Origin: a virus
Direction: 5' to 3' (one strand)
Length of the DNA stretch: 30,304 nucleotides
IMG/VR virus record: IMGVR_UViG_3300051212_001285
Coordinates: 1-30,304 of that record
Below are positions 175-29,612 of this stretch, one piece after another (position 1 is the first letter of the stretch; the number at the start of each line of letters is the position of its first letter). The notes under the pieces are model-generated. The model was not told the DNA's origin, did not search any database, and saw only the letters and a program-made list of their open reading frames with translations. Both the position numbers and the translations under genes were made by a program.

Positions 175-417
175 ATGCTACCGAGACAAAGAGAAACCGC
201 AGACAGACGGGTTATTAGTCGTATCTTACAACTTAGTCATGGACTCTCAAAACCTTCAGAGGATACAATAACTCTTATTTCCTTGCTTTACGAGAAATCT
301 GGGGGTAGTTGGGTAGAGTTTTTTACAGGCGACCCTTCCTATGTGAAACATCTAAAAAGATGTGTTTCCGTAGTGGTCAAGAAAGAAAGAGAAATCAATG
401 AGCAACGAAGAAAATGA
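175..417 (+). CDS. Small hypothetical protein upstream of the portal
   Basis: This 80-residue protein is basic at both ends and I do not recognise it. The middle (about residues 15-60) looks helical and ends in a Lys/Arg/Glu-rich tail. The start at 175 is chosen because AAGGAGG lies 9 nt upstream. An ATG at 168 is out of frame and leads only to a very short peptide. It overlaps the portal start by 20 nt, which suggests translational coupling. By position it could be a small head-assembly or packaging factor, but that is inference from location only. Confidence 0.7.
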   Translation: MLPRQRETADRRVISRILQLSHGLSKPSEDTITLISLLYEKSGGSWVEFFTGDPSYVKHLKRCVSVVVKKEREINEQRRK

Positions 418-2080
418 TGCCGTTGAGGTTGCTAAAATAACCCCTCGTTCAAAAGCACAGACTCGTTCTTTAACTGCCTCTGAGATGAAGTCTCGTGTAA
501 AAATAGCGATGACGACTTCGGGTTCACAGATGGGTTCAGGGGGAAATTTCTATTCTCCTGAGTTATCTACGGACTTTCTAGAGCTACCTCAATCACAAGA
601 CGAACAGCGTAACTATTTTAGATTTTTTTATCGTACCGATCCTTTTGTGGGGCAAGCTGTTGACCTGCACACAGAGCTACCTTTGTCCAAGATACGACTT
701 GGTATGCCGAAGGCTAAGAATAGAGACTTAGCAAATGCTTCACTTCGATTTTGTGAGAAATGGTCAAGGCGTGTCGGTCTATTGCATAGACTTATAGAAA
801 TACTTCATGAGTATAACTTGCTTGGCGAGGTTTTTGTCTTTTGTGAGGACAATAATCCAGATATGCCTAAAGAAATCACTCATGAGAAGATTAATGAGAT
901 TACTGTAGAGGGTGAAGCTCTCACAAAATACTACAAGTATAAAGACGCAGATGAGCGCGCATATAAGTGGATGAAAAAGAACTATAAGGGGTGGACTGCC
1001 CTTCGAGTTCTTCCACCTGAGCAAGTCCACATGGAGACATTCCCTTTCACGAATCAGAAGATTATTTCTCTTGTACCTGATTCCAAGACAAAAGATGTTG
1101 TTGAGAGAGCTACTCTGAGTGACCCTGATGCACTCAGAGTAGTTGAATCAATGCCTGAAATAGTTGTTGAATCAATTAGAGAGGGTAGAAATATCCCCTT
1201 AAACACAGACCCTGATGCGGGTAGTTTTGTGTATTTCATGGCGCGCAAGAAATCTCAGTATGAGCCGAGAGGACACTCAATGCTAGAGAGGTGTCTGCGT
1301 ATCCTCGTCTATCGAGATAAGTTACGCCAAGCACAGACTTCTATTGCTTCTCGCCACATGACCCCTATCCGCCTCGTGTACGCCGAGGATATGGATATGG
1401 CTGATATTGAGGCACTTCGTGAGCAAGTAGATTTAGCTCTCCAAGACCCCGATTACTCTATCATCGCAAACTTTCAGATTTCGTGGGAGGAAATGGGAGC
1501 AGACCAGCGTCTGTTGGACTTGAATGGTGAGTATGACATGACTGACCGACAGATGTATGCGGGTTTAGGTGTGACTGAATCACTCTTGTCAGGTGAATCT
1601 AGTTATTCAGGGGATAGAATAAACCTTGAGGTGATTAACACACGCTATATGCTTATGCGTGAAGTGCTTCAAGAAATGGTTGAGGAGAATATATTAAAGC
1701 CCATGTGCAAGAAAATGGGCTTTATTGAAGAAGATGAGGATGGGGAAGAAGTAGTGATACACCCAACTCTGAGCTTCACTCGTTTAGGGCTCCGAGATAA
1801 CAGAGATACTTTTGATTCTCTCTTTAATCTCTATCAGAAGGGCTCTTTGGATGTGGACATCATATTGGAGCTACTGAATATAGACCCTGAGACAACCAAG
1901 CGTAAGCTAGAGCGGGATATGTTTACGATGAACGACTCTCAGTTCAATGAAGTTTTGCGTGGTATTTATAGTGACGCAGGAAACAAACTTGCTGAAAACT
2001 CCGATGCCATAGAGAAAATTGCTAAAAATCTTGGCTTGAAGTATGTGAAGCCTCAAGAAGAGGGCGGCGGTAGATTTTAA
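398..2080 (+). CDS. Portal protein (T4 gp20-like role)
   Basis: This 560-residue protein would form the dodecameric portal at the head vertex through which DNA is packaged and released. Portal-like features are the N-terminal region with FRFFYRTDPFVGQAVDLHTE (about residues 74-93), the stretch MLERCLRILVYRDKLRQAQ before the wing region, and the late segment LGVTESLLSGESSYSGDRIN followed by a long helix (INTRYMLMREVLQEMVEENI), typical of portal clip and stem regions. The length is normal for myovirus portals. It is followed by core-like genes, a protease, a scaffold-like gene and the capsid gene, the order expected for a T4-type head operon. The RBS is only a purine-rich stretch (AAGAAAGAAAGAG), so coupling to the overlapping upstream gene is likely. 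The call rests on family resemblance and context. Confidence 0.78.
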   Translation: MSNEENDAVEVAKITPRSKAQTRSLTASEMKSRVKIAMTTSGSQMGSGGNFYSPELSTDFLELPQSQDEQRNYFRFFYRTDPFVGQAVDLHTELPLSKIRLGMPKAKNRDLANASLRFCEKWSRRVGLLHRLIEILHEYNLLGEVFVFCEDNNPDMPKEITHEKINEITVEGEALTKYYKYKDADERAYKWMKKNYKGWTALRVLPPEQVHMETFPFTNQKIISLVPDSKTKDVVERATLSDPDALRVVESMPEIVVESIREGRNIPLNTDPDAGSFVYFMARKKSQYEPRGHSMLERCLRILVYRDKLRQAQTSIASRHMTPIRLVYAEDMDMADIEALREQVDLALQDPDYSIIANFQISWEEMGADQRLLDLNGEYDMTDRQMYAGLGVTESLLSGESSYSGDRINLEVINTRYMLMREVLQEMVEENILKPMCKKMGFIEEDEDGEEVVIHPTLSFTRLGLRDNRDTFDSLFNLYQKGSLDVDIILELLNIDPETTKRKLERDMFTMNDSQFNEVLRGIYSDAGNKLAENSDAIEKIAKNLGLKYVKPQEEGGGRF

Positions 2081-5640: not shown

Positions 5641-7447
5641 GTCCAAGAAGTTCTATAAAGAAAGAAAATTATTTCGAGATAAAATCATATCCCTAAAAGA
5701 TCCCTTTGGGGGAGCAGAGAAGAATCGAGAAATAAGAGGCTTAGATAAAGCCTTAGATTTATTAGATGAAATCCCAGATGATTTCGTTGGGGATCTTTCT
5801 GATGGTTTTGAGGCTGCTTCTACAGAGTTAACTGAAATATTTACAGACCAATCTAAGTCTCTTTCTGAGAGACTTTCTGAGTTATCTAAGAAATCAGATG
5901 AGCTGTGGTCTTCGGATTTAAATAGTTTGACGGGAGCGGAGTTGGGGAGGGCAATCGCGGCGGCGGCTATGGTGAAAGCGTTTGTTGGTGACGCAGAATA
6001 TGGGGTGCCCTCTGCACAAGATTTCGTAGTGAAAGCAAAAGACCCCGACGGAAGAGATATAGAAATACATGACCAACGCATGATGGAGTCTAACACTTAT
6101 AGTCAGGTCACTCGCTACAAAGACACCACCCCTGAAAGGCGAGCTTCCGCTTTTGAGCAGCTCCATTATAATCTATCGAAGGTCAGAAAAGATAGCGCGG
6201 AGGCTGCTAGACTTCAGTCTACGCTGGACGGCGTGGTTGTCTCTATGTTGATTAACAAAGACCCTAATATCCCTTCAAACAGAGCAGCGATAGACCCTTA
6301 CTTGTTAGAGATGGCAAATAACGCCCCCTCAAAAGAGTTATTTAATGCGATAAATATATCTTCCAAACTAGATAATGGAGCAACACCGAAACAAGTCCGA
6401 GAAGTTCAAAGAGATTATTTCAATACCCTAAACGACAAAGATTTCTTTGACGCGGTGGGGGGAGACTCGGGTCCGTTTTCACAATTTAACGATTTATTTA
6501 AAGAGAATTACTGCCCCGACCACCCTTTGAATGGGGATATGGCAGGTCAGAATATTTCTGCTGGCGATGTCTGTCCATATCCTGTGGCTCCTGCAATCAA
6601 GAAGATTCTGAGAGACCACATTACAAGGACATTCTCTGACCACTATACGGTAGTTCCATCTGCTGACAGAGACTCATTCTCTTCTTCACTTGATACTAAA
6701 AAGAAAACGCAAAACAGCAATCTCTCAAGATTTCTGAATAGAAATAAAGAAGAGTACTTAAAGATACTAACTCATACAAACCCTGAGAAGAGAGAAGAAG
6801 CCTTAGCCTTTTTGCTGCTCAAGATGAGAGCTGCCAACTTGGAAGATTTGGAGTTCTCGGGTTTTTCAGGGAAATCACTAGTCGGTAAAGATAAGCAGAT
6901 TATAGAAAAGACAAAAAGGGACGCGATCCTCAAGCTCATCAAGAGTGCAGACAAGGAATCTCTGAAAGATGTTTTAATACAAGTTGATAAAATCACAGAG
7001 TCCACTTCTAAACCTAGCTCAGAATCTGTTTTTGAGGATGAGGATTGGGGGGGTTCTTTCCGATTTGCAAAAAATAATTCTAATAACTCATTTATTTATA
7101 CGCGCATAATTAGCGACTCTAAAGGAAAACAAATGCGTAGACAAGCCACTACTTATACTGACTACCAAGCACGCGGTCGCGAGTTTAGTGTTGGTATGCG
7201 TGTCTTCCCATTTCATGGGGGGAATGCAGATAAAGCGGGTGTTGTCATGCAAGTATTTCCCGCAATTGGCATGGTTGATGTGGAATTTCCTTATGGCTCC
7301 AAGAGATTCCCTGTTGAAGACCTTGTCATAGTGGAAGATACCCATAGTAATACTGTGGATTCAATTCCGGGGGGTACGGGAGTCACTCCCGTATCTGCTT
7401 CTAGAGTTGCTTCTTTATATCTAAACAAGAAAAAGGAGCAATTCTAA
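5582..7447 (+). CDS. Third frame of the chain; core-like protein with C-terminal SH3/KOW-like domain
   Basis: The frame is open from 5582. Its first conventional start is TTG 5927, with no convincing RBS. The stretch 5582-5926 still looks coding: it contains FRDKIISLKDPF, matching a motif in the previous frame, and heptad-like Leu/Ser/Glu segments. The middle is helical with a Pro/Cys-containing patch (YCPDHPLNGDMAGQ, CPYPVAPAI). The C-terminal 90 residues contain VGMRVFPFHGG...GMVDVEFPYG...FPVEDLVI, which resembles a small SH3/KOW-type beta barrel. The last residues are SRVASLYLNKKKEQF, carrying the [RK]xAS motif seen in other proteins here. It ends next to the protease start. An in-frame ATG at 7133 has a good RBS, so the terminal domain may also be made separately. 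Function unknown; position suggests a head core protein. Confidence 0.6.
   Translation, partial: KKTPPKKVNLTDEEKKEKSESKKFYKERKLFRDKIISLKDPFGGAEKNREIRGLDKALDLLDEIPDDFVGDLSDGFEAASTELTEIFTDQSKSLSERLSELSKKSDELWSSDLNSLTGAELGRAIAAAAMVKAFVGDAEYGVPSAQDFVVKAKDPDGRDIEIHDQRMMESNTYSQVTRYKDTTPERRASAFEQLHYNLSKVRKDSAEAARLQSTLDGVVVSMLINKDPNIPSNRAAIDPYLLEMANNAPSKELFNAINISSKLDNGATPKQVREVQRDYFNTLNDKDFFDAVGGDSGPFSQFNDLFKENYCPDHPLNGDMAGQNISAGDVCPYPVAPAIKKILRDHITRTFSDHYTVVPSADRDSFSSSLDTKKKTQNSNLSRFLNRNKEEYLKILTHTNPEKREEALAFLLLKMRAANLEDLEFSGFSGKSLVGKDKQIIEKTKRDAILKLIKSADKESLKDVLIQVDKITESTSKPSSESVFEDEDWGGSFRFAKNNSNNSFIYTRIISDSKGKQMRRQATTYTDYQARGREFSVGMRVFPFHGGNADKAGVVMQVFPAIGMVDVEFPYGSKRFPVEDLVIVEDTHSNTVDSIPGGTGVTPVSASRVASLYLNKKKEQF
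7121..7135 (+). promoter_or_regulatory. Internal RBS and start for the C-terminal SH3-like domain
   Basis: AAAGGA (7121-7126) lies 6 nt before an in-frame ATG (7133). The DNA just upstream (about 7075-7120) is AT-rich and codes for an Asn/Ser/Ile-rich stretch that looks more like a leader than a domain. Starting here gives a 104-residue product containing the whole SH3/KOW-like domain and the RVAS tail. Confidence 0.45.
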
Positions 7448-10059
7448 TGGCTTTCTTAAAATACGCAAAAGCAACTGTGGTTCGACCACAGGTAAAAGGA
7501 AACGAGTGGGATCGCGTAAGAGTTGCTTCTGGAGCTAAACGTCTAGACGCTTCTTTAAAGAAGAAGGCGGAAGACATTTTAGGGGAGCCTTTTACTCCAG
7601 ATAGATTCTTACTCACGCACTCTACGATAGTTTGCTCTGTAGACGCGGTTCCTGTACATGGGAGTCGTACAGGGTCACACTATGAAGAGGGTCAGCAAAT
7701 CAATCGGAAATATGCTGACTATCGTGTCACCTCCGACACCGATAAGTTTATCAACAACAACTTGGATTGTTGGTCTCGTGATGTAATCAAGAAGTCATAT
7801 AAGACATTCATTGGGGCGCACAACTTTGTGGAACACGTTCAGGTCGAAGAGCTTTCTAAGGGCCGCATTATTGATGCTGTTCTTAGAGATGTTGGTGAAT
7901 CTATTTATGTGGATATATTGGTAGCCACAGATAAAAAACACGTAGAATTAGTCAATAAAATTCTGAGTGGCGATATGAATGCCATGAGTATGGGGTGTTT
8001 TGTTCCAAACACCCCTATCACTTTGGGTGATGGCACTCGGATTCCTATTTCTGAAATTCATGTTGGAGATTTTGTTCTCACAAAGACAGGTGATTCTAAG
8101 CCTGTTAAAAACATAATGATACATAGAAGCCCTGAACCTTGGCGTATGCGGACTATTTCTGCGATTGGCGCAGAACCGATTACTGCTACAGCCAATCACC
8201 CATTCTTCGTAGCCCGACCCTTAAATGAGTGCGCTTGTGGTTGTGGTGAGAAACTTGAAACAACACACAAGTCAGCCCAACGCAGTCTAGACCTCAGATT
8301 CAAAACAGGTCATGACAAAAGGATTTTCAACCCTAATAACAACTACTCTGAGGAAGAGAAAACTGAGCGTATTCAGAGAATAGAGGCTATCAAGCAGCTG
8401 AACCTGCTAGAAATCCATGCCTCTGAAATCAATGTGGGGGATTACTTAGTGACACCTAGAGTGAAGGACACAAGTACTTCACCTGTAGATAGAGCTAAAG
8501 CAAGACTTTTAGGGTATTTCTTGGCGGAGGGTTCTTTCCTTAAGAAACAAAACAAAGTCGTGGGTGTTGAATTTTCTTTCTCTTTCGGAGAGATTGAAAC
8601 TTATGCCGCAGAGGTGAGAGACCTTTTGAAAGAAGCCTTCCCAAGTGAAAATGAGGCAAGGGTCTATCCAAGAGAGGATAGGGGTTCTTCAAGAGTACAT
8701 ATATCAAGTCAGGCTGTAGCAGAGTGGTTTTTCACACATGGTGGCGAGTATTCTAACTCCAAGAAACTCTCTGTAGAAGTAATGAATTGGTCTTCAGAAG
8801 CACACCTAGAAATGATAGGTGCTTGGATTAATGGAGATGGCACTCTTCACAATATCCATAAACATACATCTGCCTGCACGACTTCATATGACCTCGCTTG
8901 TCAAATGGAGATTCTGCTGGCTAAATGTGGATTGTACACCCGTACTTTTGTCAAACAAACAGACGGTTACAGGCAGACCTCATATGTATTAGAGCTAGGG
9001 AAAGCAGACTCCCAAGTCTTAATCCCATACTGCGATAAGGTCGCTTCTGAAGTTTCGCAGAAAAACTCGTATAAAATTCAAGACGACTTTATCCTTAGAA
9101 AAGTCACTTCTATTTCAGAGTCCTTCTATGAGGGTGAAGTTTATGACCTTGAAGTCGAAGATGAACACACTTATTTAGTACAGGGTGTTGCAGTCCACAA
9201 CTGTTCTGTAGATTTTACCATTTGTACGAAATGTGGTCATGTGGCGGCTGACGAACCTCAAATGTGTCGCCATGTTCGCTATGAAAAGGGCAATTGGTTC
9301 CATGATGAGAATGGAAATAAACATCGTGTAGCCGAGCTGTGTGGTCATGCGACTGAGGGTGAGACAGGTGGTGTTACCTTTATCGAAGCCTCATGGGTTG
9401 AAGTCCCCGCCTTTAAGGGAGCTGTTGCTAGAAATACTCTAGAAATACCCTCTTTAGATGCAAATCCTCATGACTCCATTCTAAACCAAGTTCCTCAGAA
9501 ATGGCTCAGTAAAGCTGCTTCAAGCCGTTTCGCTGGTCCTTTTGATTTTGATGAAGATGAGGGTGGTGGTGATGAAGGCGGTGAAGAGAAAGCACCTGAG
9601 CCACCTAAGTCTATTCTTGATGAAATTGAGACTGTTGTAAAAGACGCAGTTATAGACAGACTCAAGAAAAAGCTAGAAAAAGAAATTCAATCAAGTTTGG
9701 CGCAGGATACTCTGAACCCCCACCAACCTGCGACATCTGATGAAACTACGACTGATGAAACGCTCGTCAAACAAGCTAGGCGACAAAAGCTCTATTTAAC
9801 TGCTTTGAACACCGCAGTTAAAGTTGCCTCTTCTCGTAATGAGGCTCTTGATAATATCCGCCTAGTCAATGACCGCTTCGATGTCTACTTGCCTCCTTAT
9901 GTGTATAAACTCGCGGCTCAAATACCTGCTGAGAAATATAAGGATGTTGGTAGTTATATCTCTCGTGCTGAGAATGATCTTGGCATGAAGCTCTCCAAGA
10001 AAGACTCTCTCCGCTTGGTTAAGCTCGCCAAGTTAGTCTCTCTCAAAAACGGGCGGTAA
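7447..10059 (+). CDS. Prohead maturation protease interrupted by an intein
   Basis: This is an 870-residue precursor of a serine-type prohead protease that would cleave scaffold and capsid proteins during head maturation. The mature extein is 468 residues after removal of residues 184-585. Candidate catalytic residues are His125 in GAHNFVEH and Ser181 in NAMSMG. The C-extein continues CSVDFTICTKCGHV...MCRHV, a Cys/His cluster found next to the serine in capsid proteases of many large phages and perhaps binding metal. The C-terminal 250 residues are acidic, then Lys/Arg-rich, with VASSR and KAASSR motifs. Start ATG 7447 has AAGGAG upstream and touches the previous stop. Since the intein sits two residues after the serine, activity should require splicing. 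Protease identity comes from motif plus position between portal and capsid genes. Confidence 0.82.
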   Translation: MAFLKYAKATVVRPQVKGNEWDRVRVASGAKRLDASLKKKAEDILGEPFTPDRFLLTHSTIVCSVDAVPVHGSRTGSHYEEGQQINRKYADYRVTSDTDKFINNNLDCWSRDVIKKSYKTFIGAHNFVEHVQVEELSKGRIIDAVLRDVGESIYVDILVATDKKHVELVNKILSGDMNAMSMGCFVPNTPITLGDGTRIPISEIHVGDFVLTKTGDSKPVKNIMIHRSPEPWRMRTISAIGAEPITATANHPFFVARPLNECACGCGEKLETTHKSAQRSLDLRFKTGHDKRIFNPNNNYSEEEKTERIQRIEAIKQLNLLEIHASEINVGDYLVTPRVKDTSTSPVDRAKARLLGYFLAEGSFLKKQNKVVGVEFSFSFGEIETYAAEVRDLLKEAFPSENEARVYPREDRGSSRVHISSQAVAEWFFTHGGEYSNSKKLSVEVMNWSSEAHLEMIGAWINGDGTLHNIHKHTSACTTSYDLACQMEILLAKCGLYTRTFVKQTDGYRQTSYVLELGKADSQVLIPYCDKVASEVSQKNSYKIQDDFILRKVTSISESFYEGEVYDLEVEDEHTYLVQGVAVHNCSVDFTICTKCGHVAADEPQMCRHVRYEKGNWFHDENGNKHRVAELCGHATEGETGGVTFIEASWVEVPAFKGAVARNTLEIPSLDANPHDSILNQVPQKWLSKAASSRFAGPFDFDEDEGGGDEGGEEKAPEPPKSILDEIETVVKDAVIDRLKKKLEKEIQSSLAQDTLNPHQPATSDETTTDETLVKQARRQKLYLTALNTAVKVASSRNEALDNIRLVNDRFDVYLPPYVYKLAAQIPAEKYKDVGSYISRAENDLGMKLSKKDSLRLVKLAKLVSLKNGR
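7996..9201 (+). mobile_element. Intein with LAGLIDADG endonuclease in the protease gene
   Basis: A 402-residue intein runs from Cys184 (first residue of CFVPNTPITLGDG, block A) to Asn585 (VAVHN, block G), and the C-extein begins with Cys586. Block B is TANH (Thr248, His251). The two LAGLIDADG helices are LLGYFLAEG (from residue 354) and IGAWINGDG (residues 457-465), with the acidic residues Glu361 and Asp464. Block F is VYDLEVEDEHTYLV. All splicing residues (Cys1, B-block His, penultimate His, last Asn, Cys+1) are present, so both splicing and homing look possible. Between block B and the first helix is CACGCGEKL, a small Cys cluster that may bind metal. Confidence 0.93.
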
Positions 10060-10081: not shown

Positions 10082-12268
10082 ATGAGTTCTATGCGTAATC
10101 GAAATCGTTTTCGGAGGGCAAACTCTGGTTTGCCCGGCTATGATAACTTAGGTTGGGATAGTTTTGGACATCCCGCTTCTATGGCTCAACCTGACGCAGA
10201 TGAATACGGCTTTGATTCTGAGTTCGGTGAGGGTGTCCGTAAGGGTCCCTATCGCTCAGGACCTGCTCCCGCCTCTGTCGGCTGGTCTCCCGACCACCCC
10301 GCAACTCGTGAGTCTCTCCTAGAGGATTATGAGGAGACTCACGACCTCTATAACGCAAACATCAAGCAGGCGATGGAGCGTAAGGCTTCTAAGTGTATCG
10401 TAATTGCTCAGAGTCGTCTCGGCAAGAACGCTTCACAGCAGGAAATCGAAGACCTCGCCCTCAAGTATATGGACATCCCCGCCACTTCTATTAATCAGAA
10501 GTTTAAGCGTGTTGCCTCTACATTCTTAGCCGAGGACTCTCTACAGGAAGCCACAGGTTACACCGGTGTTGATGTCGGTCCCGGTAATGTCATGGCTGAC
10601 GAAGACCTCATGGCTGAAGATGAGGTTTCCGCAGGTCATCATATGGGCGGTTATATGGCTGACGAAGACCTCATCGCTGAAGATGAAGTTCCCGCCGGTC
10701 ATATGGGCGGTTATATGGAGGACGAGTTTGACCCCATGATGGAAGAGGACGAGTTCGACCCCATGATGGAAGAGGACGAGTTCGACCCCATGATGGAGGA
10801 GGACGAGTTCGACCCCATCATGGAAGAAGACGAGTTCGACCCCATGATGGAGGACGAGTTTGAGTCTGAGATGGTTTCTCCCATCGCTAATCTTTCTGAG
10901 GAGATTGCCTCTCTCAAGAAGGCGAATATGCGTTTAGCGCGTCAGATTCGCAAGTTTGCCGAGGACTCTGTACAGGAAGCCACCGGCTATGAGGGTCTTG
11001 ATGAGAGCGTAGACTTTGATTCCTCTTTAGAGGATGAGGGTCCTGCTCCTCGTCTCGCCAGCACCAAGTTTGCTTCTCGCATGGCAGAACTCTCTGAGAT
11101 GGCGGCGGCGGCAGAGACTGAGGGTGACGACGAGATGATGGCTGAGATTCTCGCTGAGATGAATGACTTGACCGCTGCTTATCGCAGACATAGTCCTTAT
11201 GGCGAGTCTTTGCATGGTTTTGGCTATCAGGATCCCGACACTCGTTGGAAGCATCGCACTCAGGGTCGTTGGAAGGCACGCGGTCAGAGTATGCCGAAGG
11301 GCTTCCGTCCAGACATGAACCCTTATTGGGATGCCGAGACCAAGAGGCTCCACAATCAAGAGTACTACGCTAAGAATAAGCATCTTTGGCATGAGCAGAG
11401 AGCGCGCAAGAGGCAGCGTCGTTTACTAGACCGTGGTCTTCCTATGGATTACACGGGTCGTCTCCCTCGCCGCCCTCGCGGTATGTTCATGGCTGATGAC
11501 ATGGATATGGGCTTTGATGGCGATATGGGCTACGATGAGTTTGAGCCAATGGACGAGGACATGGGCTATGACGAGCAGGAGGCTTTTACAGACCTCTTAG
11601 CTGAGATGGAGGAGACCGCAGGTCAGAACGCGGACTTCGTCATTAAGCCTAAGAAAGTCCCCGGTAAGAACGCCGAAGCGGAGATTACCTCTGAGGAGGA
11701 GTCAATGCTTGCTGAGATGCTTGCCGAGCTAGAGACTACCGAAGAGCCTGTGGCTTCCAAGAAGGCTTCTGTCAAGTCTGCCCTCAACTCACGTAAGGCT
11801 GCCGCCAAGAGGCGTGCTACCGAGGAAGAGGCAGACGAGGAGGAGGCTGATGAGGAGCATGAGGGCGAGGATGTGATGGGTCTTGGCAAGAAGGCTAAGA
11901 TTGACCCCAAGCTCGCCCGCATCTTTGCAGCTGCCGAGGAGGAGGCTGATGAGGAAGAGGCAGACGAGGAGGAGGCTGACGATGAGGAGCCTGTGGCTTC
12001 CAAGAAGGCTTCTAAGTCTCGTAAGGCTGCTACCAAGAGGCGTGCTGCCGAGGAAGAGGCAGACGAGGACGACGAGACAGAAATCGTTGCCGAGTTTGAT
12101 GACATGGCAGACGAGGAGGAGCCTGTAGCTTCTAAGAAGGCTTCCAAGACCCGTCAGGCTTCCGTCAAGACTCTTGGCAACATCAGTCGTGAGGCTTCCG
12201 CGTCTTCTTCTTCTGAACTCTCGAAGCTCTGGGAGTCCGCTCCCGATGTGAGCAAGTATTTCTCTTAA
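10082..12268 (+). CDS. Acidic, repeat-rich scaffold-like head protein
   Basis: This 728-residue protein lies between the protease and capsid genes, the place of the T4 scaffold gp22. It is dominated by Asp/Glu and contains several internal repeats. AEDSLQEATGY and AEDSVQEATGY occur near residues 155 and 296. A duplicated MADEDLxAEDEVxAGH block is followed by five copies of EDEFDPMME. Three copies of EEPVASKKAS occur near the end, alternating with EEEADEEEAD runs. A basic island (about residues 405-465) contains EYYAKNKHLWHEQRARKRQRR, similar to the basic part of the Dps fusion protein at 22227. Codon use is strongly biased, as in highly expressed genes. Start ATG 10082 has AAAGGA upstream. 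A scaffold substrate for the protease is the best inference; a DNA-organising internal protein is the alternative. Confidence 0.6.
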   Translation: MSSMRNRNRFRRANSGLPGYDNLGWDSFGHPASMAQPDADEYGFDSEFGEGVRKGPYRSGPAPASVGWSPDHPATRESLLEDYEETHDLYNANIKQAMERKASKCIVIAQSRLGKNASQQEIEDLALKYMDIPATSINQKFKRVASTFLAEDSLQEATGYTGVDVGPGNVMADEDLMAEDEVSAGHHMGGYMADEDLIAEDEVPAGHMGGYMEDEFDPMMEEDEFDPMMEEDEFDPMMEEDEFDPIMEEDEFDPMMEDEFESEMVSPIANLSEEIASLKKANMRLARQIRKFAEDSVQEATGYEGLDESVDFDSSLEDEGPAPRLASTKFASRMAELSEMAAAAETEGDDEMMAEILAEMNDLTAAYRRHSPYGESLHGFGYQDPDTRWKHRTQGRWKARGQSMPKGFRPDMNPYWDAETKRLHNQEYYAKNKHLWHEQRARKRQRRLLDRGLPMDYTGRLPRRPRGMFMADDMDMGFDGDMGYDEFEPMDEDMGYDEQEAFTDLLAEMEETAGQNADFVIKPKKVPGKNAEAEITSEEESMLAEMLAELETTEEPVASKKASVKSALNSRKAAAKRRATEEEADEEEADEEHEGEDVMGLGKKAKIDPKLARIFAAAEEEADEEEADEEEADDEEPVASKKASKSRKAATKRRAAEEEADEDDETEIVAEFDDMADEEEPVASKKASKTRQASVKTLGNISREASASSSSELSKLWESAPDVSKYFS
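10592..10714 (+). repeat. Two-copy tandem repeat (63 and 60 nt)
   Basis: Two in-frame units starting ATGGCTGACGAAGACCTCAT (10592 and 10655) encode MADEDL...AEDEV...AGH...MGGY. The second unit lacks one His codon. They lie in the scaffold-like gene just before the 27-nt repeats. Confidence 0.85.
10718..10852 (+). repeat. Five-copy 27-nt tandem repeat coding EDEFDPMME
   Basis: Five in-frame units of 27 nt (GAGGACGAGTTYGACCCC followed by ATSATGGAR) encode EDEFDPMME, with Ile for Met in the fourth. The near-identity of the units at DNA level suggests recent expansion; copy number may vary between related phages. A partial sixth copy (DEFE) follows. Confidence 0.93.
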
Positions 12269-12403: not shown

Positions 12404-13036
12404 ATGGCTCTACTTGGACAAGCTAGTGGTGGGTTCGCTGAGTCAAGCTCGGCTCTCCGTATACTCCACGTTGGTGTGCGTAACACCCTCGGTGAGTTAA
12501 CTGCGGACAGCTTTACTCAGACTAACCCCCCTGTAATCACAACGGCTGCAACTGTAACGCAGGCTTCGGGTCTTCTTGACGGACTCGTGAGAGGCGTACT
12601 TAGCGGCTCAATCGCCTTCGCTCGCCCTGATGGGGATGCCACTCATGGTGGCCCCACAGATTCAGGTGTTCTTGCTGTTGCGACCCAGCGCGCGCTTGGT
12701 GTTTTCATTAACAACGCTGTTGGTAATGCTTACACGAACCTTCCTGCCGTTGCTTCAAACCGTGGACCCTATGTGTCAGCACAGGGTTCCTACGGCAACA
12801 AGCTCTACGAGACTAAGATTCTCACCGGTGGTGATGCAGGTGATGACCTTGCCTACACCGTGGGTGATAAGCTCGTGGCTTCTGTCAACGGCTATCTCAC
12901 CAACAGCACCGTAGATGCCGATCTCCATGACTTTGCTCACGATATCGGTGGTGCTGCCGAGATTACTACCATCGCTATTCTTACCATTGTACCTGACTCC
13001 AACTCTGATGAGTTGGTTTACGACCAGCGCATCTAA
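12404..13036 (+). CDS. Probable capsid decoration or head-stabilising protein
   Basis: This 210-residue protein is rich in Gly, Ala, Thr and Val and poor in Lys, with predicted beta structure throughout, a composition common to phage capsid decoration and head-fibre proteins. It begins MALLGQASGG and ends in a beta-rich region (ITTIAILTIVPDSNSDELVY). It sits 17 nt before the major capsid gene and shares that gene's strong codon bias, so it is likely made in large amounts. I do not recognise a named family. The role is inferred from composition, position and codon use. Confidence 0.6.
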   Translation: MALLGQASGGFAESSSALRILHVGVRNTLGELTADSFTQTNPPVITTAATVTQASGLLDGLVRGVLSGSIAFARPDGDATHGGPTDSGVLAVATQRALGVFINNAVGNAYTNLPAVASNRGPYVSAQGSYGNKLYETKILTGGDAGDDLAYTVGDKLVASVNGYLTNSTVDADLHDFAHDIGGAAEITTIAILTIVPDSNSDELVYDQRI

Positions 13037-13053: not shown

Positions 13054-13929
13054 ATGTCTAACAATATTGACAATGCCGTAAAGCAGAAGCTAATCGCTGA
13101 CTACATCAAGACCCCTCAGGGTCGCAGCAAGCTCGCAGCTTCGATGACTCAGCCTTTGCGTCTTCGCAGAGACTACACCTCTGTGGGTCGTAAGACTTTC
13201 CTTGTTGAGCAGTTGCCTGATGGCGCTCTGCCCATTTATGACAAGGACCCTGATGTCACCGCCTTCGTGGTGGGTGAGGAGGGCGAGAACATCCTCGCCA
13301 TCACCAAGCCTCGTCGCGTGATTTTCCCCTTGTTTGAGATTGCCTCAAACCCTGAGATTCCCTTAACTCAGATTAAGGAGCGCCGCTTCGACCTCATCGA
13401 GCGCGCACAGGATTTGGCGCGTGCTCAGATTCAGGCGGCAGAGGACGAGCGCGTCTTCGCTATCCTTGACGCTGTGGCGACACAGGGTTTTGATAGCTTG
13501 GGCGTGGAGAACGCGGACATTCCCGTGATTGCTCCCCTCAATGGTCCTCTTCTCGCGGATGCTTACGCTCTCATTGAGCGTCACGACCTTCGCGTTGCGC
13601 GCGTTTACATGAACGCTCGTGACTATGCAGACATCAGAAAGTTCGGTCGTGACATCCTTGACATTGAGAGTCAGGCAGCTCTCTTGAAGACCGGTCTTCA
13701 GGCTACCCTCTGGGGCGCTCAGATTATCACATCTCGCCTTGTGCCTGTCGGCACTGTGTATGTGACCTGTGAGCCTGAGATGTTTGGTCGTATTCCTGTC
13801 CGTACAGAGCTTACTGTTCTCTCGGCTGACGATCCTAAGGCTCGTACCATCGGCTTCTCCGTGTTCGAGAACCTCGGTATCGGTGCATACAACCCTCGTG
13901 GTCTTGCCCGCCTCACCGTGACTCGCTAA
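13054..13929 (+). CDS. Major capsid protein (HK97 fold)
   Basis: This 291-residue protein would form the head shell. The pattern fits HK97-fold capsid proteins of large phages: a flexible N-terminus (GRSKLAASMTQPLRLRRDY), an E-loop/P-domain region with AQDLARAQIQAAEDERVFAILD as the long helix, an A-domain segment VYMNARDYADIRKFGRDILD, and near the C-terminus LWGAQIITSRLVPVGTVYV. KLAAS near residue 28 could be a maturation cleavage or targeting site, like similar motifs elsewhere in the window. The RBS is AAAGGAG, and codon use is the most biased in the window. It is short for a T4 gp23 but normal for many other myovirus capsid proteins. Confidence 0.85.
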   Translation: MSNNIDNAVKQKLIADYIKTPQGRSKLAASMTQPLRLRRDYTSVGRKTFLVEQLPDGALPIYDKDPDVTAFVVGEEGENILAITKPRRVIFPLFEIASNPEIPLTQIKERRFDLIERAQDLARAQIQAAEDERVFAILDAVATQGFDSLGVENADIPVIAPLNGPLLADAYALIERHDLRVARVYMNARDYADIRKFGRDILDIESQAALLKTGLQATLWGAQIITSRLVPVGTVYVTCEPEMFGRIPVRTELTVLSADDPKARTIGFSVFENLGIGAYNPRGLARLTVTR

Positions 13930-13944
13930 AGAAGGAGAATAATT

Positions 13945-14259
13945 ATGTATAGAAGTGCTAAATTAGTTCAAGCCGCATCCGCCGCGATTGTCCGTTTCAC
14001 CCCCACACGTGGTGGTTCTGGTCGTCTTGAGATTTTCGTGTTTGATAAAGATGCAGACCGCCTCATGATGACAGCCAGCGGTTTGGAGGATGTTTATGAG
14101 GGGCGTGCTATGCCTGTTTCTCAGATGAGTCCAATCGGGCTTGGTGGGAAGAACCCCATGCGCGTCTTTAGTCTGAAGATCCGTATTGAGGATAAGGCCG
14201 CTTTTGTTGCTGCATTAGGCAGTTCGAGCTTCACAGTAGTAGAAGTTCCTGCGGGCTGA
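13945..14259 (+). CDS. Small protein of the capsid operon
   Basis: This 104-residue protein is encoded 15 nt after the capsid gene with RBS AAGGAG and the same strong codon bias. It begins MYRSAKLVQAASAAIVRF and is predicted to be mixed alpha/beta (RLEIFVFDKDADRLMMTASG, FSLKIRIEDKAAFVAALG). The family is not recognised. Tight linkage to the capsid gene suggests a minor capsid, vertex or decoration protein, but no motif proves it. Confidence 0.65.
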   Translation: MYRSAKLVQAASAAIVRFTPTRGGSGRLEIFVFDKDADRLMMTASGLEDVYEGRAMPVSQMSPIGLGGKNPMRVFSLKIRIEDKAAFVAALGSSSFTVVEVPAG

Positions 14260-14341: not shown

Positions 14342-14385
14342 AGAGCCTCTACTGAACCAATATAGAAAGGTTCAGTAGAGGCTCT
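14342..14385 (+). terminator. 17-bp perfect stem-loop after the capsid operon
   Basis: AGAGCCTCTACTGAACC (14342-14358) and GGTTCAGTAGAGGCTCT (14369-14385) pair perfectly around the 10-nt loop AATATAGAAA. It lies about 80 nt after the last capsid-block gene and 70 nt before the next start. What follows (TACTATTATAG) is not a proper U-tract, so the role may be transcript 3'-end protection, RNase III processing or partial termination. Confidence 0.5.
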
Positions 14386-14455
14386 TACTATTATAGTTGC
14401 TTTATTTCTAAGGCAAGAGAGTGTCCTTAATCTTTTCAGACATGGAGATAACAAG

Positions 14456-14839
14456 ATGAGAAGAACCGCTAGTGAAGTTTTAAGAAGTCTTGAGATGAGA
14501 GTTGCCCGTCTTGAGGGTCGTACCGCAGCAGGTGGCGATATTGGTATTAAGATTGATATTAAATCTGATGCATCCGAATACCTAGAGGAGTTTAAGAATT
14601 CGGATTTTTCTTTCCTAGAAAGACTTTCTATTGCAGACTTCAACAATAGAGACTTCAAGTTGAACTCGATTCAGAAGGACAAGTTTGGTCTTAATGTGAT
14701 TGTTTCTCTACACCCTACGAATACTATCTACTACTTCGTAGCTGCCTATTCATTTAATGGTACTCTTATGTCTATTGAGGGTGTCTTTGATGACCTTCGT
14801 TTGGCGAAACAAGCTGTGAGGTCTTTAACTATTCAATGA
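14456..14839 (+). CDS. Tagged small protein 1 of 3
   Basis: This is a 127-residue protein whose first 20 residues (MRRTASEVLRSLEMRVARLE) are nearly identical to those of the two following genes, while the rest is unrelated to them. The tag is amphipathic with heptad spacing (V, L, L, M, V, L), followed by a short Gly/Ala linker and then a predicted alpha/beta body of about 95 residues. The body contains no motif I recognise. Start ATG 14456 has GGAG upstream, with a leader different from that of the other two. Possible roles are internal head proteins carried by the shared tag, or proteins docking to one partner through a coiled coil. Confidence 0.75.
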   Translation: MRRTASEVLRSLEMRVARLEGRTAAGGDIGIKIDIKSDASEYLEEFKNSDFSFLERLSIADFNNRDFKLNSIQKDKFGLNVIVSLHPTNTIYYFVAAYSFNGTLMSIEGVFDDLRLAKQAVRSLTIQ

Positions 14840-14981
14840 AGTCTCGTCTTAATCTCCTATATATACTTGTCAAAATAAGGTTTTGATTAGGACAGGTGTC
14901 CTTATATCAATTTTGATGAATTGACGACTCATTTTATATCTTGTTTATCGTTGGCTTAGTCAAATCAAAAACTCAAACCCC

Positions 14982-14999
14982 TATCTAGGAGTATAGATA
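14982..14999 (+). promoter_or_regulatory. Hairpin with the RBS in its loop (tagged gene 2)
   Basis: TATCTA (14982-14987) pairs with TAGATA (14994-14999). The loop GGAGTA displays the Shine-Dalgarno, and the last paired base is the A of the ATG. The same 18 nt recur before tagged gene 3. Confidence 0.6.
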
Positions 15000-15424
15000 T
15001 GAGAAGAACCGCTAGTGAAGTGGTAAGAAGCCTTGAGATGAGAGTTGCCCGTCTTGAGAGTCAATCTTTTAGATCGGCTTCCTCAGACGATATGATTGAC
15101 GAATCCATTGATTTTCTTGAACGCAAAGGATTTAAGTTTAGCAGAGATACTGCTTTCAGTTATGATTTTAAGTATAGCTTCACCCATCCTAAGTTTGGTC
15201 CTCAGACAATCACAGTGCCTTTCAAAAAAAGCGTAGGAACTTTCGAAGATGATATAAACCGCCCTTATGAGGTTAAAAAATTTCTAGACGAAGTACCCAA
15301 CATAAAGAATAGCATAATATCAAAAACTCTCAATGAAGGGAATTTTAAATTTAAGACTGAGATGGAGTACGATTTCGCAGGAGCTCTTCTGAAGCACATT
15401 AAAAATCTTGAGCGTTCTCGTTAA
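14999..15424 (+). CDS. Tagged small protein 2 of 3
   Basis: This 141-residue protein starts MRRTASEVVRSLEMRVARLE, matching the first tagged gene at all but one residue and at 57 of 60 nt. The body (residues 25-141) is charged with mixed helices and strands, and differs from both neighbours; it has no recognised motif. The preceding 160 nt gap holds two small hairpins (AGGAC/GTCCT at 14889-14902 and TCAATT/AATTGA at 14907-14924). The start is fixed by the hairpin-borne GGAG and by alignment of the tag. Confidence 0.75.
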   Translation: MRRTASEVVRSLEMRVARLESQSFRSASSDDMIDESIDFLERKGFKFSRDTAFSYDFKYSFTHPKFGPQTITVPFKKSVGTFEDDINRPYEVKKFLDEVPNIKNSIISKTLNEGNFKFKTEMEYDFAGALLKHIKNLERSR

Positions 15425-15507
15425 TTTATATTTGGCGATATCAAGCGATTAAGGGATTTAATAGTTCATATATATACTCTCTAGACAGAGAGGGTGTATT
15501 TCAACCC

Positions 15508-15525
15508 TATCTAGGAGTATAGATA
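15508..15525 (+). promoter_or_regulatory. Hairpin with the RBS in its loop (tagged gene 3)
   Basis: TATCTA (15508-15513), loop GGAGTA, TAGATA (15520-15525): identical to the element at 14982, again ending on the A of the start codon. A second hairpin, CTCTCT/AGAGAG (15477-15492), lies just upstream. Confidence 0.6.
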
Positions 15526-15983
15526 TGAGAAGAACAGCTAGTGAAGTTTTACATGAGTTAGAGATGAGAGTAGCCCGCCTTGAGTCAAAGACTTCCGCGA
15601 CAAGTGGTGGTTCATTTCAGCCTTATGGAGGCAGGTCGCTCCCCTTAAATATCCCTCACCCTACTCTTATAGGTACTTGTGTAATTAAATCCCTTATAGA
15701 GAGGGAGACTGATGATGGTTCAGTCTTTGTGTCTGCTACGGTGGTTGGCGAGGGTGTAGCCTTCAAGTGCTACTATAATGAGTCTAATTATACGAGGGCT
15801 ACTATCGTAGCACAAGATTTACGGAAGCCTGAAGTTCAAGACTTATTGCAGGAAGTTCAATTTCTCTATGATATCCCAAGTGAGCTTACTCCCCAAGAGG
15901 CAGTAGCGGAGGCGGTCTGTTTTGAGGGTGTTCAGGGTAAGACACTTGTTGCGTGTCTTAACAAGTCTCTTCGTCGCAAATAA
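15525..15983 (+). CDS. Tagged small protein 3 of 3
   Basis: This is a 152-residue protein. Its tag, MRRTASEVLHELEMRVARLE, differs in the middle but keeps both conserved blocks (RRTASEV and LEMRVARLE). After a Ser/Gly linker the body is distinct from the other two: a beta-rich part (SVFVSATVVGEGVAFKCYYN) followed by a helical part and a basic tail (LNKSLRRK). No known domain is recognised. It is the last of the three tandem genes. Confidence 0.75.
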   Translation: MRRTASEVLHELEMRVARLESKTSATSGGSFQPYGGRSLPLNIPHPTLIGTCVIKSLIERETDDGSVFVSATVVGEGVAFKCYYNESNYTRATIVAQDLRKPEVQDLLQEVQFLYDIPSELTPQEAVAEAVCFEGVQGKTLVACLNKSLRRK

Positions 15984-16038
15984 ACTCTTACTTTCTAAGA
16001 GTTATAAGAGGGTTGTTACAGAGTGGTTTATGACCACT
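15983..16038 (+). terminator. Two consecutive stem-loops after the tagged genes
   Basis: AACTCTTA (15983-15990) pairs with TAAGAGTT (15996-16003), starting inside the stop codon. AGTGGT (16022-16027) pairs with ACCACT (16033-16038). Neither is followed by a U-tract. Together with the promoter-like sequence that follows, they mark a likely transcription boundary. Confidence 0.35.
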
Positions 16039-16069
16039 AAACAATATTAGAAATAAAACTGACTTTAAG

Positions 16070-16098
16070 TTGGCGTTAGTATATTCATCTGATATATA
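16070..16098 (+). promoter_or_regulatory. Candidate sigma70-type promoter
   Basis: TTGGCG (16070-16075), a 17-nt spacer and TATATA (16093-16098) precede the multi-HTH gene. The start of transcription would be near 16105, giving a leader of about 35 nt. It is the best -35/-10 pair I found in the window. Confidence 0.5.
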
Positions 16099-16138
16099 GG
16101 GTATTATCGTGTGGTGAAATATACATTTGGAGTTTGAA

Positions 16139-16804
16139 ATGGGCAGACAGAAGATAAGTTATGATTTAGCTATTTTGACTGAGGCGGTGTCTTCGGGGAA
16201 GACATATGCAGAGTTGGCTGACTTTTTCAAAGTCTCAATCGGGACGATTAAGAAGTGGCTAAATGAAAGCAATCTTGAAGTTCTTGAGAAATGGAAGAAG
16301 GCTGCTCGTGTTTCTGAGCGTGACTTAAAGTGTAGGCAGATGAGGGCGGAGGGGAAGACATTACAGGAGATAGGGGAGGTTGTGGGGGTAACGCGAGAGG
16401 CTGTTCGGCAATCTTTGAATAAGCAAGGGGTGAAGCCTCTTAGAGTTCTTTCAGAGAAGGCAAAGACTGCAAAGGCGATGAGGGCGGTGCGTTTGGAGGA
16501 GATTAAGACGCTTTATTGGTCAGACATAGAGTCTCTTTTGAGAGACGGTCTGCCCTTAGTGGAGATAAGGGCTCGGTATTCACTTTCGATTCAGCAGGTG
16601 AAGGATTTAAAATTAGGGCAGGTGAGGGCGGCATATGATAATGCTCGGTTAGAGGAGGTAGTTCGTTTGTATGAGGAGGGGCTCAGTATGTCTTTAGTAT
16701 CTGAGCGAACAGGTTATCATATTCAGAGTGTTTTGAGGATACTGAAGAAGCGGGGTGTAAAGAGGCGGGCGAGGCATAGGTGGAACTCAAAGACTAAAAG
16801 TTAA
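16139..16804 (+). CDS. Protein with four helix-turn-helix-like units
   Basis: This is a 221-residue basic protein with four HTH-like units in a row: TYAELADFFKVSIGTIKKWL, TLQEIGEVVGVTREAVRQSL, PLVEIRARYSLSIQQVKDL and SMSLVSERTGYHIQSVLRIL. A basic tail (KKRGVKRRARHRW) follows. Such arrays resemble resolvase/transposase-type or sigma-region-4-like HTHs and suggest DNA binding. ATG 16139 is preferred over the in-frame TTG 16127 because GGAG (16129-16132) lies 6 nt upstream of the ATG and overlaps the TTG codon. Codon use (many AGG, GGG and GAG) differs sharply from the capsid block, consistent with low expression or separate origin. It may regulate phage transcription or bind packaged DNA; the sequence does not decide. 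Confidence 0.75.
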   Translation: MGRQKISYDLAILTEAVSSGKTYAELADFFKVSIGTIKKWLNESNLEVLEKWKKAARVSERDLKCRQMRAEGKTLQEIGEVVGVTREAVRQSLNKQGVKPLRVLSEKAKTAKAMRAVRLEEIKTLYWSDIESLLRDGLPLVEIRARYSLSIQQVKDLKLGQVRAAYDNARLEEVVRLYEEGLSMSLVSERTGYHIQSVLRILKKRGVKRRARHRWNSKTKS

Positions 16805-16812
16805 ATAATACA

Positions 16813-16854
16813 TTTATTCTCTTCAACCATACGTAGAAGGTTGGAGAGAATAAA
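16813..16854 (+). promoter_or_regulatory. 16-bp stem-loop burying the RBS and touching the start codon
   Basis: The arm 16813-16828 (TTTATTCTCTTCAACC) pairs with 16839-16854 (GGTTGGAGAGAATAAA) over 16 pairs, one of them G-U. The loop is ATACGTAGAA. The Shine-Dalgarno GGAGAG is inside the 3' arm, and the last paired base is the A of ATG 16854. As folded, the site would be closed to ribosomes, so translation control, or processing that opens it, is likely. Confidence 0.7.
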
Positions 16855-18644
16855 TGAGCATTTTATCCCAAACAATAAAGTTGGCATATGAGAATCCTCA
16901 TCTGAGGGGGGTTTTGATTCCACTAGTTTCGGATGAGCTAGGTTCTTATAAGTTACGGATAATACTTAAGAAGAGAGCTTCAGAGTCAAAAGCACTTTGG
17001 GATAAGTTATTTGGTTCTTCTCGATTGGCGAGTAACTTTCGTGCTTATTATTTAAATGACCCAGAGGGTTTGATTAGAGCGACAACTGCGAAGGGGGCTG
17101 TGTTTGAAGACCCGAACACAGAGAAAATGAACTCTTTGACGACAACCTATAAGAAAGCGATAGAGGGTCAGGATTGGGCATTACAGGTGATAAATGAGTT
17201 GTACAAAAAGTTTGAAGTTTGGTATGAGGAGAACGCGAGTGAGGAGGAGAAAGAGGAGGTAGAAAAAGATTTTAGCACATTACTATTAAGTGAAATAGGC
17301 GCGATGTCTCAAGCTGAGTACAGGGAACTCAAGAGACAAATTTCGGAGATGGATTGGTCAGATGCTCTTGAAACCCCATTAAAGTTAAGATTGAGTGATT
17401 TAGCTATAGACGCTAGAAGTGCGATGTCCTATGGGAGCTTAATCCGGCGAGATGGTAAAGGTTTGAAGGGCTTTGCAAAGAAGCTGGCAGACGGAATGGC
17501 ATTTTCGACTGCCTCAAGGTTTGAGCGTCTTGGTATGTTAGGGGTTTTGTCTGTAGATCAGGTGGCTTCAAAAACAAGAGAGTTTTTTTGGGATACTGAA
17601 AACCAAAACTCTGTTATAGCCGACTTAATTGTGTGGCGGAAACGTCAGAAATGGGTGTCAGATTTAATGGAGGAGGGGCGGAGTGACGATGAAATTGAGC
17701 GAGAATTAGTGAAAAAAGAAGACGAGTTAAGACGAGAGCTAGATAAATCTATAGGGACGGATTCTCTAAAGAAATATCTTGCCGAAGAGATGGCGCACCA
17801 GACGCAGAAGTTATTATTTGGAGAGATTTTCAAACAAGCGGGTTTAGAAGATGCTCTCGCAGACAAATTAGGGTTCATTCCAAAACAGCTACAACATCTG
17901 CCTATGCGGGGTACTCCGGGTATGGATCTAGTGCTAGATTATGTATCTAAGTACATTACGGATAAAAAAATTGAGGGTATTGTGGCGGCTTCTGGCATGA
18001 AGCACATATATGCTAGGGTTGCAGAGAAAGGTTTTGATAGGTTAGAAGAGGCGGGTTACGAGGATGTTGTGGATGTGATTAGAACATATTTCAGAGAGAC
18101 TTCAGATTTTACAAAGGGAGGGAGAGCGCAAACTGTTGCGGATGTTAACAACAGGTATCAAACACAGATGACGGGCGTAATTAAAAAAATAGATTCTGCA
18201 AGAAGTACTGAGGATTTGTTAGAGGCGTTTCGAGAGATGAACGACATTACACGAAGCTATTTTAGTCAGGGTTTAGCTGAGATAGATAAGACAAAAGAGA
18301 GATACAGCTTAACAAATCGGTTAGAGAAGTTGAAGCCTAAGTCCGAGTCTCTTATGGATGACTTAGTGATTTCAAGAGTTGCCTCGGAGTCGGAGCTTGA
18401 TTTCTATGAGAAATCTTCGATTACATGGCTTACATTGAATAGGTTATTTCAGCAGGCGCTGTTTGACATGAGTATTTCAGAGAACCAAGAGTCTCTTCTA
18501 AAAGAGATGAAAAAAGTAATGCCCAAGAATTTAGAGGTTTCTGGAGAGGATGTTAAGGAGGCTTTCTTGAAGGTAATTGAGGTAGAGAGAAATAAAAAAA
18601 ATAAGAAGAAGAGCAAGGGTACAGCAAAGAAAAAAGTTAAATGA
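16854..18644 (+). CDS. Large probable virion protein with LAYENPHLRxxLIP motif
   Basis: This 596-residue, mostly helical protein ends in a very basic tail (KKNKKKSKGTAKKKVK). Its N-terminus, IKLAYENPHLRGVLIPLV, shares a pattern (LAYxxPxxRxxLIP) with the proteins encoded at 20863 and 23786. [RK]xAS motifs occur in KKRASES, SRLASNF and SRVASES. Several acidic coiled-coil segments are present (for example about residues 260-300). I know no named family for it. The shared N-terminal module and the motifs suggest a virion component, perhaps processed by the prohead protease. The start codon is fixed by the hairpin and RBS just upstream. Confidence 0.7.
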   Translation: MSILSQTIKLAYENPHLRGVLIPLVSDELGSYKLRIILKKRASESKALWDKLFGSSRLASNFRAYYLNDPEGLIRATTAKGAVFEDPNTEKMNSLTTTYKKAIEGQDWALQVINELYKKFEVWYEENASEEEKEEVEKDFSTLLLSEIGAMSQAEYRELKRQISEMDWSDALETPLKLRLSDLAIDARSAMSYGSLIRRDGKGLKGFAKKLADGMAFSTASRFERLGMLGVLSVDQVASKTREFFWDTENQNSVIADLIVWRKRQKWVSDLMEEGRSDDEIERELVKKEDELRRELDKSIGTDSLKKYLAEEMAHQTQKLLFGEIFKQAGLEDALADKLGFIPKQLQHLPMRGTPGMDLVLDYVSKYITDKKIEGIVAASGMKHIYARVAEKGFDRLEEAGYEDVVDVIRTYFRETSDFTKGGRAQTVADVNNRYQTQMTGVIKKIDSARSTEDLLEAFREMNDITRSYFSQGLAEIDKTKERYSLTNRLEKLKPKSESLMDDLVISRVASESELDFYEKSSITWLTLNRLFQQALFDMSISENQESLLKEMKKVMPKNLEVSGEDVKEAFLKVIEVERNKKNKKKSKGTAKKKVK

Positions 18645-28851: not shown

Positions 28852-29612
28852 TCGTCAAATAGAGGCATTTGGTCATGTGTAATATGGGTTTTGATTCTCT
28901 CTTGTGCCATTTTTGTGTAAGAAGGAGACAGCTCAATTCCAATATAGTCTCTGTTATTGTCTATTGCGGCTATTGCAGTCGTTCCTGACCCCATAAACGG
29001 GTCTAGAACCACCTGCCCTGTTGTGGAAGCCACACACCGATTTGCAAAAGCGAGTGGGAAAGGAGCAGGGTGTTCATTTTTCATTTCTTGAGTGAACTCC
29101 CAAATGTCACCGAAAGCGTTGGCTTTGGGTGCAAGTTTGAATTCAGGCTTCGTGATTAGATAAATCACCTCGTAGGTTGGAAGGAAGTATCCAGAATTAA
29201 AGTTAATACCGCCTTTCCGTTGCCAAATAATAATCTGACGGACGGGGAAACCCTGAACGATGTCACTTCGGTCTTGTAGTAACCCCCCTTGGACTCTCCA
29301 CTTATGGTTATAAAAGATGGCTCCTGTTGGTTTGAGAACTCTGAACATTTCAGTTAGACAGGCGCGTTGCCAAAGCACATATTCGTCATGGGGCATTGCA
29401 TCGTTATGATTGTCATAGCCCTCTATAAGTCGTGCGTTAGACCACTTGCCGCCTCGACCATCTTTCATGCCGTTCCCTGTTGAGTTCTTCAGGTTATATG
29501 GGGGCGAAGTTACGATGGTATCTACACACTCATCGGGTAAAAGGCGCATTGTCTTAACTGCGTCACCCGTGGTGATTTGATTAAGAAAAGGTTCTAGTTG
29601 TTTTGATGTCAT
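28848..29612 (-). CDS. Orphan DNA methyltransferase (beta class, N4-C or N6-A)
   Basis: This is a 254-residue methyltransferase. Motif IV is TSPPYN (residues 35-40) and the AdoMet-binding motif I is DPFMGSGTTA near residue 200, in the circular order of beta-class enzymes. The target could be cytosine N4 or adenine N6, since SPPY is found in both. A Lys/Gly/Asn-rich loop after motif IV (NSTGNGMKDGRGG) may contact DNA. There is no restriction enzyme gene nearby, so it probably protects phage DNA or marks it. GGAGG lies 8 nt before the start on the minus strand. Its stop overlaps the stop of the converging gene. Confidence 0.9.
   Translation of the reverse strand: MTSKQLEPFLNQITTGDAVKTMRLLPDECVDTIVTSPPYNLKNSTGNGMKDGRGGKWSNARLIEGYDNHNDAMPHDEYVLWQRACLTEMFRVLKPTGAIFYNHKWRVQGGLLQDRSDIVQGFPVRQIIIWQRKGGINFNSGYFLPTYEVIYLITKPEFKLAPKANAFGDIWEFTQEMKNEHPAPFPLAFANRCVASTTGQVVLDPFMGSGTTAIAAIDNNRDYIGIELSPSYTKMAQERIKTHITHDQMPLFDD

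Follow-up and report, generated by a model that had tools for sequence, protein, structure and literature searches.

Genes and features at the locus

The window, by which we mean the whole stretch of DNA analyzed here (30,304 nt), is a 30-kb virus record that carries a head module. The genes for a portal protein, a head maturation protease, an acidic scaffold-like protein and the major head protein (MCP) lie in this module (Table 1). The protease gene contains an intein-like insert of ~402 residues, with a Hint/hedgehog match and C...HN-C junctions; the protease genes of two other records, G008 and G001, are unbroken at this position. A strong hairpin follows the last gene of the module and probably ends the head operon ahead of the three genes studied here. 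Farther downstream are a gene for a multi-HTH protein (sigma-70 region 4-like plus resolvase-like HTH), a gene for a 596-aa protein and, on the opposite strand, a DNA methyltransferase gene.

Table 1. Positions of the features in the window and in other phage records
Feature	Record	Position	Strand	Remarks
Portal protein	window	398..2080	+	phrog_16240
Head maturation protease	window	7447..10059	+	phrog_18299; intein-like insert inside
Intein-like insert	window	7996-9201		inside protease gene
Acidic scaffold-like protein	window	10082..12268	+	by composition; between protease and MCP; conserved in relatives
Conserved gene	window	12404-13036		head module
Major head protein (MCP)	window	13054..13929	+	
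Head-module gene	window	13945-14259		last before hairpin
Strong hairpin	window	14342..14385	+	-32.2 kcal/mol, z -7.0
Promoter-like element ATTATAGTTGCTTTATT	window	14390..14406	+	49 nt upstream of gene 1; score 12.8
Gene 1	window	14456-14839	+	127 aa; starts MRRTASEVLRSLEMRVARLE
Tag A, gene 1	window	14456..14527	+	residues 1-24
Gene 1 body	window	14528..14839	+	without homolog
Promoter-like element TTTATATCTTGTTTATC	window	14933..14949	+	49 nt upstream of gene 2; score 14.2
18-nt RBS sequence TATCTAGGAGTATAGATA	window	14982..14999	+	before gene 2; overlaps A of ATG
Gene 2	window	14999-15424	+	141 aa; starts MRRTASEVVRSLEMRVARLE
Tag A, gene 2	window	14999..15070	+	
Gene 2 body	window	15071..15424	+	without homolog
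Promoter-like element TTAATAGTTCATATATA	window	15458..15474	+	50 nt upstream of gene 3; score 14.5
18-nt RBS sequence TATCTAGGAGTATAGATA	window	15508..15525	+	before gene 3; identical to that of gene 2
Gene 3	window	15525-15983	+	152 aa; starts MRRTASEVLHELEMRVARLE
Tag A, gene 3	window	15525..15596	+	
Gene 3 body	window	15597..15983	+	
Multi-HTH protein	window	16127-16804		between tag genes and tag-B-like protein
596-aa protein	window	16854..18644	+	N-terminus MSILSQTIKLAYENPHLRGVLIPLV resembles tag B of LR745208
DNA methyltransferase	window	28848-29612	-	phrog_67, E 9e-61
Tag-C protein, ART-PolyVal	G008	15198-16274		
Tag-C protein, tRNA-ligase-CPD-like	G008	91902-92456		
Tag-C protein, HAD_SAK_1	G008	97176-97784		
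Internal tag remnants	G008	191203-191916, 209746-210441		between two bodies
Internal tag remnant	G015	36673-37497		between two bodies
Tag-B proteins, examples	LR745208.1	398171-398575, 389893-390948, 351838-352536		
Internal tag-B copy	LR745208.1	431502-433268		588-aa ORF
KRLxKK-type ORFs	NC_023719 (phage G)	28218, 73330, 178671, 207449, 245994, 255160, 446709, others		

The first-pass annotation reported three tandem genes here that share an N-terminal tag on unrelated bodies, and their ORFs and starts are as it described them. Over 60 nt, the tags of genes 1 and 2 match at 57 positions, which on recounting is the figure given before; genes 1 and 3 match at 49 and genes 2 and 3 at 47. The three bodies are mutually unrelated and gave no significant Pfam or PHROG match, and bodies 1 and 2 had no homolog in IMG/VR searches. 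The body of gene 3 has a 90% identical homolog at the end of contig L267/G018. A single-sequence fold of gene 1 was uninformative (pLDDT 38). For gene 3, AlphaFold2 with a three-sequence input gave one confident model out of five, and this best model predicts a helix at residues 5-24, a disordered linker to about residue 45 and a folded body, which matched no solved structure (best E-value 0.17).

Genes 2 and 3 had also been said to share an identical RBS hairpin. An identical 18-nt sequence indeed precedes both genes (0.07 expected by chance), but its predicted fold is weak (-4.3 kcal/mol; z -0.9 and -0.3), so the label of hairpin is unsound.

Sequence and distribution of tag A

The tag, hereafter tag A, had been described as 20 residues long. 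When one sequence per body cluster was aligned, columns 1-24 were conserved across the 53 independent bodies and information fell to about zero from column 25; thus the shared tag stands and its length is 24 residues. The consensus of these 53 sequences is M-[RK]-[RK]-[ST]-A-S-E-[IV]-[IL]-[RN]-x-L-E-[M]-R-[VI]-A-R-L-E-[RK]-[QSK]-[AS]-[SAG], in which L12, R15 and E20 are invariant.

A search of IMG/VR for the tag joined to other bodies, as the first-pass annotation had proposed, took it far beyond the cassette of three genes. Gene 1 as a query identified 20 IMG/VR loci, and a degenerate DNA pattern scan returned at least 119 stretches. Altogether, we found at least 131 distinct complete tag-A proteins with at least 91 unrelated body clusters on at least 62 IMG/VR contigs. 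The median length was 154 aa (131 proteins among the matches listed), and a Met was located 3-5 residues ahead of the motif in 158 of 165 pattern matches, among the matches listed. In whole-record searches, record G008 (375,691 bp) carried ~31 copies of the tag, G001 carried 8, and G019, G020, G022, G023, G024 and G026 had 11-16 each. The same pattern had five matches in 85,000 bacterial and archaeal genomes (GTDB), all internal and unrelated and none N-terminal. The tag had no match in cultured phages or plasmids. A tag-like RVARLADNA in the G008 scaffold was discounted as chance; it is not kept in the scaffolds of the window phage, G001 or LR745208.

The MCP of the window is 91-97% identical to those of the tag-A records in which the head protein was found; tag-A phages, which are uncultured, therefore represent one lineage. 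The uncultured 485-kb phage LR745208.1 (W01) has an MCP with 87% identity to that of the window; for Bacillus phage G the value is 38%.

The tag peptide is amphipathic, with a hydrophobic moment of 0.62 that was reached by 1.6% of shuffles, and positions I/L9, L12, V/I16 and L19 are spaced like heptads. This pattern would fit the coiled-coil alternative raised in the first-pass annotation, in which a docking helix might anchor late accessory proteins to the virion surface, a tail component or a cellular hub, with the tag neither cleaved nor injected. The disordered linker that follows the helix in the gene 3 model would also suit such an arrangement, as would the lack of a T4-type (L/I)xE cleavage site in tag A. 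Specifically, the P3 residue of E20 is R, rarely Q/S/H/E (the tag reads ...VARLE), and that of E13 (column 11) is N/D/E/S/G, never L or I. The one match to a motif known from giant phages is A5-S6-E7 (AxE, in SPN3US). The invariant E20 is followed by a small-residue patch at the tag end, and one may speculate that the prohead protease removes the tag after E20, E7 or A/S23. A non-cleaved docking helix is the main rival of the reading we prefer, in which tag A is a modular N-terminal peptide that targets proteins to the prohead; we nevertheless regard it as unlikely, mainly for reasons that involve the cargo and the exchange of tags (see below).

Promoters, gene order and exchange of tags

Most tag-A genes appear to have a promoter of their own. 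The element TTTRTAGTTTMTTTATA occurs 35-54 nt before the start codon in 23 of 27 tagged G008 genes. Because the promoter matrix (PWM) was trained only on tagged genes of G008, it was tested on other contigs, where the element preceded 19 of 34 tagged and 26 of 386 untagged genes (p 4.5e-12, the contigs being related). Within the window, a score of at least 14 was obtained for two of the three tag genes and for none of the 26 other ORFs. In G008, TTTRTAGTTTMTTTATA is found as well ahead of the decoration-MCP pair, of one head-operon gene and of a gene for a 2084-aa tail-fiber-like protein. Other untagged genes with the promoter include those for a tail protein and a tail lysozyme/endolysin. This association with structural genes suggests that the element is a late promoter. 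The matrix scored no LR745208 gene, no G010 tag and no G001 tag. Four G001 tag genes (at 1729, 4273, 111199 and 112063) have a visibly related element: a variant, TTTTTTTCATTTATGAGC, with an inverted repeat of the CTCTGAGAGAGC type after it, takes the place of the G008 promoter.

If promoter and tag travel together, the pair might be a copied expression cassette, whose 5' end aids transcription or translation while the peptide itself has no function. The promoter, RBS context and tag do move together, and the Leu codons 12 and 19 are nearly all CTT, a bias which indicates that the tag copies share DNA ancestry. However, the variety of codons used for Glu 13 and 20 and for Arg 15 roughly equals what genome codon usage predicts, whereas the residues are invariant or nearly so, which indicates selection on the peptide. 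In addition, LR745208 genes with a different tag (tag B, see below) keep their peptide without this promoter. A functionless peptide is thus highly improbable.

Since a single short label stands at the N-terminus of dozens of proteins encoded all over the genome, it could also direct import into a replication compartment inside the cell, e.g., a phage nucleus. The replication genes tested (for PolA, DnaB, RecA, the RNR large subunit, the clamp loader and an ssb-like protein) lack both the tag and the promoter; an RNR small-subunit gene is preceded by one weak promoter match (score 14.7). A phiKZ-type chimallin was absent from G008, G001, G019, G020, G023 and LR745208, based on the single query phiKZ gp54, which distant homologs could escape, and structural genes have the promoter too. 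We consider compartment import very unlikely.

Gene order provides a further link to the head. Five of the seven genomes have a tag gene at a distance of 0.5-2.7 kb downstream of MCP (~1e-4 if the genes were placed at random, with the cut-off chosen afterwards); in the other two, G001 and G019, no tag-A gene follows MCP closely. A tag gene is also found between the portal gene and the next head gene in G001 and in G020/G029. Most of the 31 tags of G008 are far from head genes.

Tag-swapping, as proposed in the first-pass annotation, agrees with these data: a modular N-terminal tag on swapped bodies, in the head module, under a promoter common to structural genes. Homologous bodies with and without a tag were found in four cases, i.e., window gene 3 and the untagged G012:2204-2566 (36% identical), G011:1985 and G008:31587 (the G011 tag precedes an apparent native Met), G008:314231 and G001:68971, and G015:18607 and LR745208 464341. 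Three proteins of G008 and G015 contain a tag remnant at the junction of two bodies, which might reflect a fusion of two tagged genes or use of the site within a polyprotein.

Tag A is missing from LR745208. Instead, ~11 of its proteins have a common N-terminus, MTTLRSKLIRLAHENPALRPHLLPLLKEA, which we designate tag B; one tag-B gene is located between the scaffold and MCP genes, and one internal copy was seen in a 588-aa ORF. Several G008 proteins have an N-terminal RVAxRYMKA motif, tag C. A 2H-phosphoesterase-like body carries tag C in G008:91902, tag B in G010:13476 (39% identity over 168 aa) and no tag in G008:200201. That sequence-unrelated tags replace each other on one body argues against docking to one fixed partner, although docking in general is unaffected.

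In cultured phage G (NC_023719), a (K/R)(K/R)LxKK-type sequence occurs near the start of 12 ORFs, with 6 occurrences elsewhere. The proteins, gp251, gp336 and gp610 among them, have different bodies, including ferritin-like and ParB-like ones. Several of them start with an HGT-like motif and look ADP-ribosyltransferase-like by eye, without confirmation by Pfam. KRLxKK is possibly a packaging tag of this phage.

Cargo, proposed function and comparison with known systems

The recognizable effectors carry tag C, whereas almost none of the tag-A bodies could be assigned a function, with WGR as the one clear domain. PADLOC and NCBIfam searches of the tagged protein set identified nothing solid. Tag C is present on an ART-PolyVal protein (E 1.9e-12), a HAD_SAK_1 RNA repair phosphatase (E 1.5e-18) and a tRNA_lig_CPD-like phosphoesterase (E 1.4e-4, just under the Pfam cut-off). 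The promoter of structural genes is present at both RNA-repair-type genes and absent at the ART gene. It would make sense for RNA-repair enzymes to be produced together with structural proteins if they are packaged for the next infection. The LR745208 homolog of the HAD protein (404201-405727) is untagged and lies inside the head operon. Soluble enzymes such as these suit internal cargo better than decoration of the virion surface, which is the second point against the docking helix.

We think it probable that tag A serves a huge-phage lineage related to phage G as a modular virion-packaging signal, an N-terminal peptide that targets proteins to the capsid or prohead. The tag would form an amphipathic helix of ~20 residues followed by a short linker. 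Small, fast-changing proteins bearing it would be made late in infection, a component of the assembling head would recognize the helix and recruit the cargo into the prohead, and the packaged cargo would be ejected into the next host. The data establish where the tag sits, its sharp end, its many unrelated bodies, its gain or loss on homologous bodies, the promoter and gene order that link it to structural genes, and the exchange of analogous tags on one body; that the proteins are expressed late, reside inside the virion, reach the host and act there as effectors is inferred. A broader proposal, to which we give an even chance, is that phages of the phage G lineage use interchangeable tags (A, B, C and KRLxKK) to load tens of fast-exchanged effectors per genome into the virion, as a modular arsenal injected at the start of infection.

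For most genes of huge phages, no function is known. If the proposal is true, ~30 hypothetical proteins of one genome become candidate injected effectors, e.g., against host defenses, and the tag could be used to mine metagenomes for more of them. The exchange of tags suggests that they share a receptor in the head, which could be looked for. Because phage G is in culture and seemingly has a short tag of its own, the idea can be put to a direct test. A packaging signal that is short, portable and suited to the largest known phage capsids could be of use for protein delivery as well. Searches of the open-access literature turned up no description of tag A.

Known systems provide several parallels. 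Short N-terminal targeting propeptides occur in T4 and SPN3US (PMC5694885, PMC10052503), and T4 packages the ADP-ribosyltransferase Alt (PMC9503650). Tag A resembles the T4 capsid-targeting sequence (IPI-III, Alt) in being a short N-terminal peptide on unrelated, here putatively late, proteins with fast-evolving small bodies, and an ADP-ribosyltransferase is among the cargo here too, on tag C. PHROG and Pfam scans of the tagged proteins revealed no link to the T4 peptide. The two seem to differ in sequence, and since the (L/I)xE cleavage motif was looked for and is absent, we do not class tag A with the T4 family. T4 also has a handful of tagged proteins as opposed to ~31 in the G008 genome, and here each gene usually has its own promoter and analogous tags replace each other in related phages.

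Two of the N-terminal propeptides of SPN3US are short (20 and 24 residues), and the N-terminal 15 residues of gp53 and gp54 are identical (PMC10052503, PMC5694885). Most propeptides of SPN3US and phiKZ, in contrast to tag A, are longer than 100 residues and protein-specific, and cleavage after AxE or SxE has been shown there. In P1, residues 1-30 of DarB are sufficient for packaging, and a signal longer than 9 and shorter than 30 residues directs a reporter into the capsid (PMC9024508). This is an N-terminal packaging signal, as proposed for tag A, but it has been described for one large protein and is not a multi-copy tag. For polyvalent ART-PolyVal proteins, packaging and injection have been predicted (PMC9503650), and the tag-C protein of G008 has this same domain; the polyvalent protein is a single giant multidomain protein, whereas the putative effectors described here are small, separate and joined to a common tag. 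Relative to known capsid targeting, the new features are the number of tagged proteins, their separate promoters and the interchangeable tags.
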